Assembly (NCBI GenBank): GCA_020445165.1
Contig: JAGRHE010000063.1
Location: 1 to 13,767, forward strand
Source of the DNA: Gammaproteobacteria bacterium
GTDB lineage: Bacteria; Pseudomonadota; Gammaproteobacteria; Chromatiales; Sedimenticolaceae
DNA length: 13,767 nucleotides
Direction of reading: 5' to 3'
Within the stretch, counting starts at the first letter, position 1, and every line of letters begins with the position of its first letter. The notes under the pieces are model-generated. The model saw only the letters and a list, made by a program, of their open reading frames with translations, was not told the DNA's origin and did not search any database. Both the position numbers and the translations under genes were made by a program. Positions 10,528-13,547 of the stretch are shown in pieces.

Positions 10528-11073
10528 GCATCGCCAGACTACAACTACTTCAGGGACTACGACCCCGCCACCGGAAGGTACATCCAGTCGGATCCAATTG
10601 GTCTAGCGGGTGGGATCAATACGTACAGTTATGTGCGTGGGAATCCTCTTAAGTACATCGATCCGGATGGGCTTTTTGGGCGAGCCGCTGCGGGTTCTCT
10701 TGCGCCCCCGGTAGCAGGAGGGCTTGGCAATGGAAACATAAACTGGAATGCGCCTCTTTTGCCGAGTTGGATGCCGGGCATGATGGGCGGTGGGAACGTT
10801 ATTCCGTTCCCGGGAACAGGAAACAACTCCAACACTGGGGAGCAGTGTCCACCATCAGATCCAGATGACCCAAGTGACTGCGAACTTTGGTTTAACGACC
10901 TAAACGTTAGGTTGACGCAGCTTTATTTCAATCACACGAAGAGGCCAATGAACGATATCGAACTAGCTGCCGCAAAACGTGCTTGGGACGAAGAAGCCGA
11001 CAGGTACAACGCAAAGTGCGTGCCCCTGGGATACGATGTGATGACCTTCCGTTTCAGAAACCAAGGTAAGTAG
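10528..11073 (+). CDS. Orphan Rhs C-terminal tip 1 (5'-truncated Rhs core plus variable tip)
   Basis: This is the 3' end of an rhs gene without its body. The first 49 codons (to 10674) encode the end of the Rhs core: DYNYFRDYDPATGRYIQSDP, then GLAGGINTYSYVRGNPL and DPDGL, which normally precedes the toxic tip. The tip has about 133 residues. A Gly/Pro-rich linker (GGLGNG, MPGMMGGGN, PFPGTGNN) leads to a compact end with two cysteines (DCELWFNDLN...EADRYNAKCVPLGYD). I do not recognise a toxin family. An in-frame TGA at 10525 closes the frame, and the first usable start is a GTG at 10633 without a clear ribosome site, so the unit is probably silent or a relict. A small gene follows one base later. 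Confidence 0.75.
   Translation, partial: ASPDYNYFRDYDPATGRYIQSDPIGLAGGINTYSYVRGNPLKYIDPDGLFGRAAAGSLAPPVAGGLGNGNINWNAPLLPSWMPGMMGGGNVIPFPGTGNNSNTGEQCPPSDPDDPSDCELWFNDLNVRLTQLYFNHTKRPMNDIELAAAKRAWDEEADRYNAKCVPLGYDVMTFRFRNQGK
10535..10674 (+). repeat. Rhs core 3'-end repeat, copy 1
   Basis: This is the first of three direct copies of the DNA for the Rhs core end (others at 11700-11839 and 12681-12820). The first 25 bases are identical in all three copies, and the rest are similar mainly at protein level. Unlike the other two copies, it lacks the upstream leader. Confidence 0.75.
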
Positions 11074-11074
11074 C

Positions 11075-11560
11075 ATGCCGCTGTATCGAGTGTCAAAAAA
11101 TGGGGCGGTTATCAGTATCGTAGGCGGTTCCGAAACCATAGCTTTTTTTGCAGAGTTAAGCGGAGGGCTGGTAGGTCCTATTTCCTTTGTGGCCCAAGGA
11201 CTGGGGCGTAGCAACGGAGAGCACGAGTTCTGGATAAGGGAAAGGTTGTCTGTAGGCGATGAGTTAGTAATCGGGGTGTTGGACGAGGGGGAAGATGTGG
11301 CTCGGAATCGAGCAGCGGAGAATTTTGCACCACAAATCTCGAACAGGGAGTCGCTAACGTTATCGCTTACATTGAACGGTAATAGGAAAGGTCAGTTAAG
11401 TGCTTCAGAGAACGATAGCGTAGGCGTGAACTTGAGCTGGAAAGAAGGGGACTCAGCTACTCTTGTGTCTCTTTCTAGTTCGGGTCGTGATCAGTCAGGG
11501 AAATCGGTTGAGTACGAGTTGTTCGTAGGCGACACCGTGGCGATAAGGGCATCAAACTGA
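11075..11560 (+). CDS. Putative immunity protein for Rhs tip 1 (unknown family)
   Basis: This 161-residue protein is not recognised with certainty. It starts one base after the stop of Rhs tip 1, the position where a cognate immunity gene is expected, and the tight spacing implies coupling. The protein has no signal peptide or membrane span and looks beta-rich, with short alternating hydrophobic stretches such as GAVISIVGG, ESLTLSLTLNG and GVNLSWKEG. The segment HEFWIRERLSVGDELVIGVL is the most family-like part. If it is an immunity protein, its lack of membrane segments would place the target in the cytoplasm. Base composition is lower in GC than the secretion genes, consistent with transfer. 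The immunity role rests on position only. Confidence 0.65.
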   Translation: MPLYRVSKNGAVISIVGGSETIAFFAELSGGLVGPISFVAQGLGRSNGEHEFWIRERLSVGDELVIGVLDEGEDVARNRAAENFAPQISNRESLTLSLTLNGNRKGQLSASENDSVGVNLSWKEGDSATLVSLSSSGRDQSGKSVEYELFVGDTVAIRASN

Positions 11561-11577
11561 CTCACCGCGGGAGGACT

Positions 11578-11839
11578 AGAATGAAAATCGCGCTAGGCGC
11601 ATTTTCTACGCCCAGCCGCATCGTACCTCGGTATTTGCTACAACCCGCTGAACCACCAGCGAATTCAGTACGATCCACCCAGCCTTCGATAGCGGGCTTC
11701 AGACTACAACTACTTCAGGGACTATGATCCGAGCACTGGGCGGTATATCCAGTCTGATCCGATCGGGCTGGACGGTGGATTGAACACCTACCTGTACTCG
11801 AACGCCAACCCGTTGCGCTATGTCGATCCTCTGGGGCTG
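11578..11839 (+). repeat. Leader plus Rhs core repeat, copy 2
   Basis: About 260 bases matched by 12561-12820. The leader (to about 11699) shares blocks such as CCGCATCGTA, CAACCCGCTGA and GCGAATTCAGTACGAT with the other copy, with two single-base length differences. The rest is the Rhs core end. An in-frame TAG at 11690-11692 lies 12 bases before the DYNYF codons. Confidence 0.75.
11581..11727 (+). CDS. Possible 48-residue ORF in the leader of Rhs unit 2
   Basis: An ATG at 11581 follows a strong GGGAGG ribosome site with a six-base spacer. The frame reads MKIALGAFSTPSRIVPRYLL and onward, and ends at a TGA inside the Rhs core, in a different frame from the core. The homologous frame in unit 3 (LGAFSAASRIVSRIL) is conserved in part but has lost its start through a one-base change and stops early. 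The peptide matches no family I know. It may be a chance frame over the leader repeat, or a leader peptide whose translation delivers ribosomes close to the Rhs fragment. Confidence 0.3.
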   Translation: MKIALGAFSTPSRIVPRYLLQPAEPPANSVRSTQPSIAGFRLQLLQGL

Positions 11840-12429: not shown

Positions 12430-12670
12430 GAAATTGTCCATACAACCATTACCGCAACGACGAATTCAGCACTGGGTGGAATATGCTCTTGATCCGGGCT
12501 TTGATCATTCGGCTAAACCGGAGGAATAATGATCGCCATGGTAATTGGTTCGCCGCAGAGAGATTGAAACTGCATTAGGCGCTTTTTCAGCAGCGAGCCG
12601 CATCGTATCTCGAATTCTGCCGCAACCCGCTGAGCCACTTGCGAATTCAGTACGATTCAGCCAGCCTTTC
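12430..12670. other. Gap between Rhs units 2 and 3, including the unit 3 leader
   Basis: No firm gene is seen. A 31-codon frame from a TTG at 12434 to TAA at 12527-12529 (ending HSAKPEE) looks faintly protein-like. A GGAGGA site also precedes an ATG at 12530, but that frame ends after 12 codons. From 12561 the sequence matches the leader of unit 2. The equivalent of the unit 2 small ORF is broken here. Confidence 0.45.
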
Positions 12671-12820
12671 TGAGAGGCTTCAGACTACAACTACTTCAGG
12701 GACTACGACCCAACAGCAGGAAGATATGTACAGTCTGATCCGATCGGGCTGGCTGGGGGGTTGAATACGTATGCGTATGTCGAGGGTAATCCCGTAGGAA
12801 GAACAGATCCTCTGGGCCTG
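12561..12820 (+). repeat. Leader plus Rhs core repeat, copy 3
   Basis: Matches 11578-11839 through the leader and the Rhs core end, with two single-base length differences in the leader. An in-frame TGA at 12671-12673 lies 12 bases before the DYNYF codons, the same distance as in the other two units. Confidence 0.75.
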
Positions 12821-13201
12821 TTTCCAACTCGATCGTTCCCGGCCTCGATTGGCGCGGGCGGTGGTTTGAGCGGCGGTGGTATGTTCTCCCCAGTCATTCC
12901 TTGGGATCACACAGCCCCGATTCTGCCAGACTTGTCAGGCTATCTTAATGGCGGTAGTGACGATGGAAGGGACGGCCCATTCGATCTTCCTGATGGCATA
13001 AAGCCCCCCGATCGCGACAAGTTGGTATGCACCACGGAGCAGCCACTTCCTGTTCAGCCGTCCAGTCCCGATCCAGGCGACGGATGTAGGAAAGCGGTTG
13101 AGAATATAATCGAGCGATGCACCAAAATTGAGAGCACGGTACTCAGGCGAGCTTGTTTCATCTCGGCAATTCCATTACTTGTGCTTTGCCAAGGGTTCTA
13201 G
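12674..13201 (+). CDS. Orphan Rhs C-terminal tip 3 (5'-truncated Rhs core plus variable tip)
   Basis: This is the third Rhs end fragment. The core part encodes DYNYFRDYDPTAGRYVQSDP, GLAGGLNTYAYVEGNPVG and DPLGL (to 12820). The tip of about 126 residues starts with a Gly-rich stretch (GAGGGLSGGGM), then a long Pro/Asp-rich linker, and ends with a helical segment containing four cysteines (CRKAVENIIERC, then RRACFISAIPLLVLC). The last 15 residues are hydrophobic. No known toxin domain is recognised. The frame is closed by TGA at 12671, and the first start is the TTG at 12761 with a G-run directly before it. The linker-then-cysteine layout resembles tip 1. A small gene follows after 10 bases. 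Confidence 0.75.
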   Translation, partial: EASDYNYFRDYDPTAGRYVQSDPIGLAGGLNTYAYVEGNPVGRTDPLGLFPTRSFPASIGAGGGLSGGGMFSPVIPWDHTAPILPDLSGYLNGGSDDGRDGPFDLPDGIKPPDRDKLVCTTEQPLPVQPSSPDPGDGCRKAVENIIERCTKIESTVLRRACFISAIPLLVLCQGF

Positions 13202-13211
13202 AGATTGGACA

Positions 13212-13547
13212 ATGATTACGTACTCAGAAATATCTGCTGCAAAGCTGCTCAAGCAATTCTCGGATCAGGGATATGTCGAGCTGTCCTTGAATATGAAGCA
13301 AGCTCAAGCATGTCGAAGAGTATTAACCTTATTGGATTTGGTCTATGGGCCAGAGTTTCGGACATTGCCGTGGGCTAAGAAGACCGCGGTGATTCTTAGT
13401 TCGATCAAATTGTCCCTATACATCCTGACCAGGTATTCGGCCCTCAGTGAGCTAGTAGCTCTTTACACTCGAGGGCGAGTTGGTTGGGAGTGCACAGAAC
13501 AAGGCGATGATTTTTATGTAGTCACTTTGAGAAAGAGTGCAATATGA
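13212..13547 (+). CDS. Putative immunity protein for Rhs tip 3 (unknown family)
   Basis: This 111-residue protein is not recognised. The ATG at 13212 lies 10 bases after the stop of Rhs tip 3. The frame is open from 13128, but the extra part overlaps the tip gene and has no ribosome site, so the shorter form is preferred. It looks mostly alpha-helical and cytoplasmic, with a moderately hydrophobic amphipathic region around residues 58-83 (KTAVILSSIKLSLYILTRYS) and a beta-like end (DDFYVVTLRK). Position after a variable Rhs tip suggests immunity. Its end overlaps the ATG of a further, truncated frame as ATGA, so the cassette once had a third gene. Confidence 0.6.
   Translation: MITYSEISAAKLLKQFSDQGYVELSLNMKQAQACRRVLTLLDLVYGPEFRTLPWAKKTAVILSSIKLSLYILTRYSALSELVALYTRGRVGWECTEQGDDFYVVTLRKSAI

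Follow-up and report, generated by a model that had tools for sequence, protein, structure and literature searches.

The 13,767-nucleotide (nt) contig JAGRHE010000063.1 of a gammaproteobacterial assembly from the Sedimenticolaceae (GCA_020445165.1), hereafter the window, carries near its 3' end three tandem units, each made of the end of an Rhs core, a C-terminal tip and a small partner gene. These units are orphan rhs-CT/rhsI modules, which are a known kind (Poole et al. 2011, PMC3150448); their tips are unrecognised, and they share a boundary element, here called D2, which the earlier note on this DNA had missed. We consider it probable (roughly 0.8) that the array represents a bank of modules displaced from rhs genes, each with a C-terminal tip and an immunity gene. 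The array is ordinary in kind, and it is the unrecognised tips and D2 that set this variant apart. The features, all on the forward strand, are as follows.

10528..10674 (+): Rhs core end of cassette 1; TIGR03696 positions 32-76, E 2.5e-16; no start of its own; stop at 10525-10527
10675..11073 (+): tip 1; 132 amino acids (aa), three Cys, unrecognised; no family match
11075..11560 (+): imm1, putative immunity gene; 161 aa; 1 base after tip 1
11590..11675 (+): D2 copy a; conserved 86 nt; the 78% match spans 11585-11686
11693..11839 (+): Rhs core end of cassette 2; TIGR03696 positions 32-76, E 4.8e-15
11840..12196 (+): tip 2; 118 aa, Gly-rich
12196..12429 (+): imm2, putative immunity gene; 77 aa, small membrane protein; hydrophobic segment 1-31
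12572..12657 (+): D2 copy b; conserved 86 nt
12674..12820 (+): Rhs core end of cassette 3; TIGR03696 positions 32-76, E 4.1e-16
12821..13201 (+): tip 3; 126 aa; ends CX10C-X11-CX10C, predicted helical hairpin
13212..13547 (+): imm3, putative immunity gene; 111 aa; 10 bases after tip 3
13569..13577 (+): putative third D2 copy, first 9 nt (GCACTAGGC); 21 nt after imm3
13586..13767 (+): left part of an IS3-type insertion sequence (IS) element; blastn hits include sequences annotated as IS3-family transposase; exact left end not fixed; continues beyond the window

The order within a unit is core end, tip, partner gene and D2. The core-end repeats begin at 10524, 11689 and 12670, which gives spacings of 1165 and 981 nt, and all three cassette open reading frames (ORFs) match the same stretch of the 76 positions of TIGR03696. 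An in-frame stop lies just 5' of each core end and the tip ORFs have no upstream start codon; their first listed starts (GTG 10633, TTG 11780 and TTG 12761) are all within the core. The partner genes begin with ATG and follow the tips closely, with one intervening base between the end of tip 1 (11073) and the imm1 ATG (11075), a one-base overlap of the imm2 ATG with the tip 2 stop (12196), and ten bases between the end of tip 3 (13201) and the start of imm3 (13212). The earlier note's description of three units with a common core end, differing tips and small genes, and this very spacing was therefore correct.

The reading as orphan rhs-CT/rhsI modules is supported because the same layout follows a full-length rhs gene in one genome of the same order, G131, and an rhs end in another, G003, with D2 in between. 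In G131 (locus L031) a 1668-codon rhs frame precedes a small ORF that encodes two hydrophobic segments; then come D2, an orphan core end with its tip and an ORF with multiple transmembrane segments. The G003 locus runs from an rhs end cut by the contig start through a partner-like ORF with an N-terminal hydrophobic segment, half a D2, a small ORF and a D2 to a tip 2-like orphan and an ORF for a small membrane protein. The order of partner gene, D2 and orphan core end thus recurs in both genomes. Position downstream of the main rhs gene, a trait of orphan modules, is seen in G131 and probably in G003, while no main rhs gene lies in the window. The tip 2 ORF and the G003 orphan are 40% identical over 173 aligned positions, core included and mostly through the core, and imm2 resembles the partner of that orphan weakly (22% over 54); the two pairs, which have the same order, may weakly be said to correspond. 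The orphan junction (CTTCAGACTACAACTACTTCAGGGA, up to three mismatches) was found in 3 of 210 genomes of the order, always on an orphan fragment, and its reversed control in 0 of 210. The G131 orphan tip directly 3' of D2 (L031 7556-7948, minus strand) is phospholipase A2-like (PF00068, E 0.005, below the Pfam cut-off). The small ORF between the two D2 copies of G003 (L022 1069-1245) encodes 58 aa with two hydrophobic segments and is perhaps a partner gene that lost its tip. Apart from this lone partner-like ORF no small genes without tips were encountered, and neither were tips that are not Rhs-terminal. Another genome, G093, has three Rhs end cassettes (L047, G093:C1:3330000-3342000, 3016-10441), each after a near-identical linker of about 200 nt that carries an antisense regulator-like fragment; the partner ORFs have signal-peptide-like starts, as judged by eye, and a phage-type integrase gene (PF00589, E 6.7e-28; 9452-10441, minus strand) lies beside the cassettes.

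Several results weigh against a bank of displaced modules. The core ends are identical at only 81, 91 and 88 of 123 ungapped positions in pairwise comparison (66-74%), and over D2 and the core end units 2 and 3 agree at 190 of 256 positions, a divergence too high for efficient present-day recombination. None of the three tips was found on a full-length rhs gene. The tail profile of tip 3 matched 0 of 204 genomes and that of tip 2 matched one of 204, itself an orphan and a row of the profile, so that neither gave a fused copy of the kind which the earlier note had proposed to look for in related strains. The only relative of tip 1, P0121, is partial (83% over 57%, among four candidates scored from 5.8 billion proteins) and diverges from tip 1 close to its end. 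The common start of the three core ends at core position 32 is apparently no general rule; other short Rhs frames in the order start at core positions 13, 20 and 23, among the matches listed, some of which are at contig edges and none of which was inspected one by one. Finally, a full-length rhs gene is absent from the window, which ends inside the IS. Separately, tip 3 has at best weak similarity to an rhs end from Caballeronia.

Core regions within one locus were always identical in the Serratia and Escherichia coli cases of Jackson et al. (2009, PMC2935791), unlike the diverged core ends found here, and the array is therefore old or assembled from several donors. For the same lack of identity it does not fit a recent array of C-terminal displacement as in the Jackson model; identical core pieces are, however, no part of what defines orphan modules. 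The diverged core ends, the tips without start codons of their own, the stretch 12430-12566 without a long frame and the IS at the end of the array could also be attributed to a decaying graveyard of rhs ends that has no present function. This is possible but doubtful, since no tip and no partner gene has lost its open frame, the spacing is still tight, imm2 shares 80% identity with P0123 (its single close relative besides itself, among five candidates scored) and part of tip 1 is 83% identical to P0121. The protein search behind P0121 and P0123 requires shared words of five residues.

A further possibility is that only the partners are kept, for protection, and that the tips are simply carried along with them. 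The ATG starts of the partner genes and the tipless partner-like ORF between the two D2 copies of G003 are in accordance with this, and immunity arrays of the Vibrio type VI secretion system (T6SS) offer a precedent (PMC5361080). The three window tips are nevertheless all still open, and promoter-like sites are not in excess (2 found, 3.3 expected in shuffles); we regard such a bank of immunity genes alone as likewise possible but doubtful.

D2 is a repeat of about 100 nt situated 5' of core ends 2 and 3, its two copies in the window being 78% identical. Its start motif GCRYTAGGC occurs three times in the window, either strand considered, at 29, 142 and 21 nt after the partner genes. The third occurrence is the stub at 13569, whose local alignment score was reached in 10 to 127 of 2000 shuffles, according to which D2 copy was taken; it is likely to be the beginning of a third D2 copy next to the IS3-type element. 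From D2 start to partner stop the distance is 25 and 27 nt in G003 and about 50 nt in G131. A model that uses sequence alone, made from both copies of the window and one of G003, recovers these three sources, the half copy in G003 and a new copy in G131 (53 bits, E 9.4e-14, in a 4.7-Mb contig); four copies are 69-78% identical to each other. Among the 210 genomes of the order the model matches three, clearly in G003 and G131 and weakly in G010 (E 0.008), and in a sample of 369 genomes of the class it matches two, G131 clearly and G408 weakly (E 0.009). The two weak matches were taken as chance, and consequently no genome besides G003 and G131 has a clear D2 in these scans, the stricter filters of which lose weak matches. 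A DNA search with copy b plus the junction gave matches in 4 of 210 genomes, D2 being covered only at G003:C21; the places in G003:C27, G144, G155 and G164 were discarded, their matches being merely 23-27 nt of core. In viral contigs the exact D2 pattern was found 0 times. In G093 the match is confined to the junction end of D2 (17 bits, positions 74-123), and in G131 D2 meets the core end at a different point.

Several identities were considered for D2. In 33 local alignments of three D2 copies with 11 core segments, three of them from the G093 cassettes rather than from intact genes, only two were reached by three or fewer of 200 shuffles, and the better of these lies about 150 nt off the homologous place; a decayed rhs core was therefore rejected, as was a known RNA, because in Rfam D2 hit nothing but mir-60, by chance (E 0.38). 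If D2 were conserved as a short coding stretch and not as a DNA site, this would explain why one frame is open across the conserved part of all four longer copies (ALGAFS..SRIVPRI..QP.EPL.NS.RS) and why copy a has an ATG at 11582 after GGAGG. Changes at the three codon positions (15/10/21, p 0.14) give no significant codon bias, however, in copy b the frame shifts before the junction, and there was no match to the frame in plasmids. The profile of the frame matched 3 of 204 genomes, the third of which, G035, was dropped because it falls within a GNAT reading frame, so that outside G003 and G131 only this place was matched. A coding role is accordingly unlikely.

D2 could also be a dedicated exchange site, by which modules move in the manner of integron cassettes. 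In a fuller version, D2 and the fixed core-end junction would be a dedicated cassette format, and modules with common ends would move between gammaproteobacterial rhs loci and feed exported, envelope-acting Rhs proteins. This would account for the presence of D2 in the same place in three genomes, between differing tips and partners, for the similarity of its four copies, for the orphan junction kept in other genomes and for a hairpin at the start of D2 in the consensus fold; the integrase beside the G093 cassettes fits as well, though that genome has the junction end of D2 alone. On the other hand, neither a recombinase or integrase nor an attC-like core site, of which GTTRRRY is the hallmark, was recognised in the window by eye, no dedicated search having been made for either. 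Folding z-scores of D2 are weak (-2.1, -0.9, 0.3 and -2.0), only 1 of 12 pairs in the fold shows a two-sided change and the covariation term counts against the fold, and the joining of D2 to the core end at a different point in G131 also speaks against an exchange site. Both the exchange site and the wider cassette format are, in our opinion, improbable. Rather, we favour D2 as the inherited right-hand flank of the immunity gene, which would have served as a second homology arm in module exchange.

Tips and partners belong to no recognised family, as the earlier note had said: there was no convincing match in Pfam, NCBIfam, PADLOC or PHROG, the sole match with E < 0.01 outside the core being PHROG 32279, of unknown function, over 25 residues of imm3 (E 0.0075). 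No relatives of imm1 or imm3 were found in plasmids or viral contigs. The description of the array as an undescribed toxin and immunity set can therefore be kept in so far as none of the families searched accommodates the tips and few relatives turned up at this sensitivity, while toxicity of the tips and immunity by the partners are putative. The four cysteines of tip 3 are the only invariant tail positions in seven selected aligned proteins, and CX10C pairs are present in 6 of the 113 hit tails whose core end could be recognised (shuffle mean 0.68, maximum 3 in 200), while other spacings are rare or absent (6 in three tails, 7 in one, 8, 9 and 11-14 in none); five of the seven were chosen from the CX10C list for that feature, so the invariance and the count are not independent. 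In an AlphaFold2 (AF2) model of the tip 3 ORF made from six sequences, helices span 134-150 and 155-174 with block pLDDT of 78-84 over 141-170, and most residues outside that part are below 50. Alpha-hairpinin-type peptides consist of two antiparallel helices joined by two disulfides with CX3C spacing; tip 3 differs from this type in its CX10C spacing. Tip 3 is probably a disulfide-stapled hairpin that acts outside the cytoplasm, and tip 2 probably acts on the membrane because its partner is a small membrane protein. A clear hydrophobic segment was found in 6 of 8 partner-type proteins from the window, G003 and G131 (imm1 is borderline and imm3 has none; the scan left out the partners of G093, G048 and the solitary G131 orphan). 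The three full-length rhs frames for which the N-terminus was available, two in G131 and one in G001, have a start resembling a Sec signal peptide as judged by eye, and Sec export is a listed route for toxins with RHS repeats (PMC3482391). Taken together, hydrophobic partners, such rhs starts and the Sec route suggest that the tips may act at the envelope.

With respect to the surroundings, the absence of a full-length rhs gene holds for the window and was not established beyond it, and the same is true of the earlier claim that the array stands alone. The window ends in an IS, and two relatives have rhs genes further on, beyond the same gsp operon: in G003 7.4 kb past gspD on the opposite strand, and in G001 11.6 kb past gspD, from locus coordinates. 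Between gspD and rhs G003 has a partner-like hydrophobic ORF of 136 aa and a frame of 2156 codons, which has Ig-type domains and starts like a signal peptide; together with the rhs gene they occupy L003 12235-22015 (minus strand). GspD relatives were found at five loci in gammaproteobacterial metagenome-assembled genomes (best 75%), and past gspD tblastx (E 1e-5) found only the core end and a few short L003 pieces in common between the window and these five, whose flank is as short as 1.3 kb. Solitary orphans do exist: that at G131:C1:460108 has no second rhs core within the 10 kb examined. Its tip and partner (L042 6109-7241) adjoin an ATPase-like gene, as judged by eye. In the window at 9546-10483 (minus strand) a TacA-like antitoxin gene (PF08681, E 2e-14) overlaps a gene with a sub-threshold GNAT match (E 0.004), which reads as a TacAT-type toxin-antitoxin pair.

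In the bank of displaced modules the units would have arisen by successive displacement of rhs gene ends, and modules would later have been exchanged through the flanking repeats, the core end on the left and D2 on the right. In their present state the tips are probably neither made nor exported, the cell may express the partner genes and be protected by them, and a stored tip would return to use if its core end recombined with a full-length rhs gene. The route by which new tips enter rhs genes has been modelled with a hypothetical circular intermediate (PMC2935791). A repeat that closes modules marks where they end, can be followed from genome to genome and possibly offers a homology arm on the right-hand side. 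Tips and partners alike are candidate members of new toxin and immunity families, and for one of them a simple hairpin, probably stapled by disulfides, is predicted.

The consulted parts of PMC2935791, PMC3150448 and PMC3967940, and a targeted literature search, gave no description of a boundary repeat like D2, which is no proof of absence. Growth inhibition by rhs-CT of Dickeya dadantii is blocked by the cognate partner (PMC3150448), and in passaged Salmonella an orphan recombined with the main rhs gene (Koskiniemi et al. 2014, PMC3967940). The array shares with such modules a core fragment ending in the DPxGL region directly 5' of a variable tip, a small partner gene directly after the tip, tips without their own start and the tandem order, which agrees with the earlier view of orphan tip and partner modules. 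It differs from them in that no parent rhs gene lies in the window, the tips are unrecognised, a shared D2 closes the units, and function here is read from sequence. Long arrays of dissociated tips lie 3' of rhs genes (PMC2935791) and are likewise strings of tips each with a piece of core; the core pieces in the window are not identical, and all three start at one point. As in the Vibrio T6SS arrays (PMC5361080), partner genes accumulate by displacement, but there the effectors were lost and the immunity genes kept, whereas in the window all three tips have been kept.

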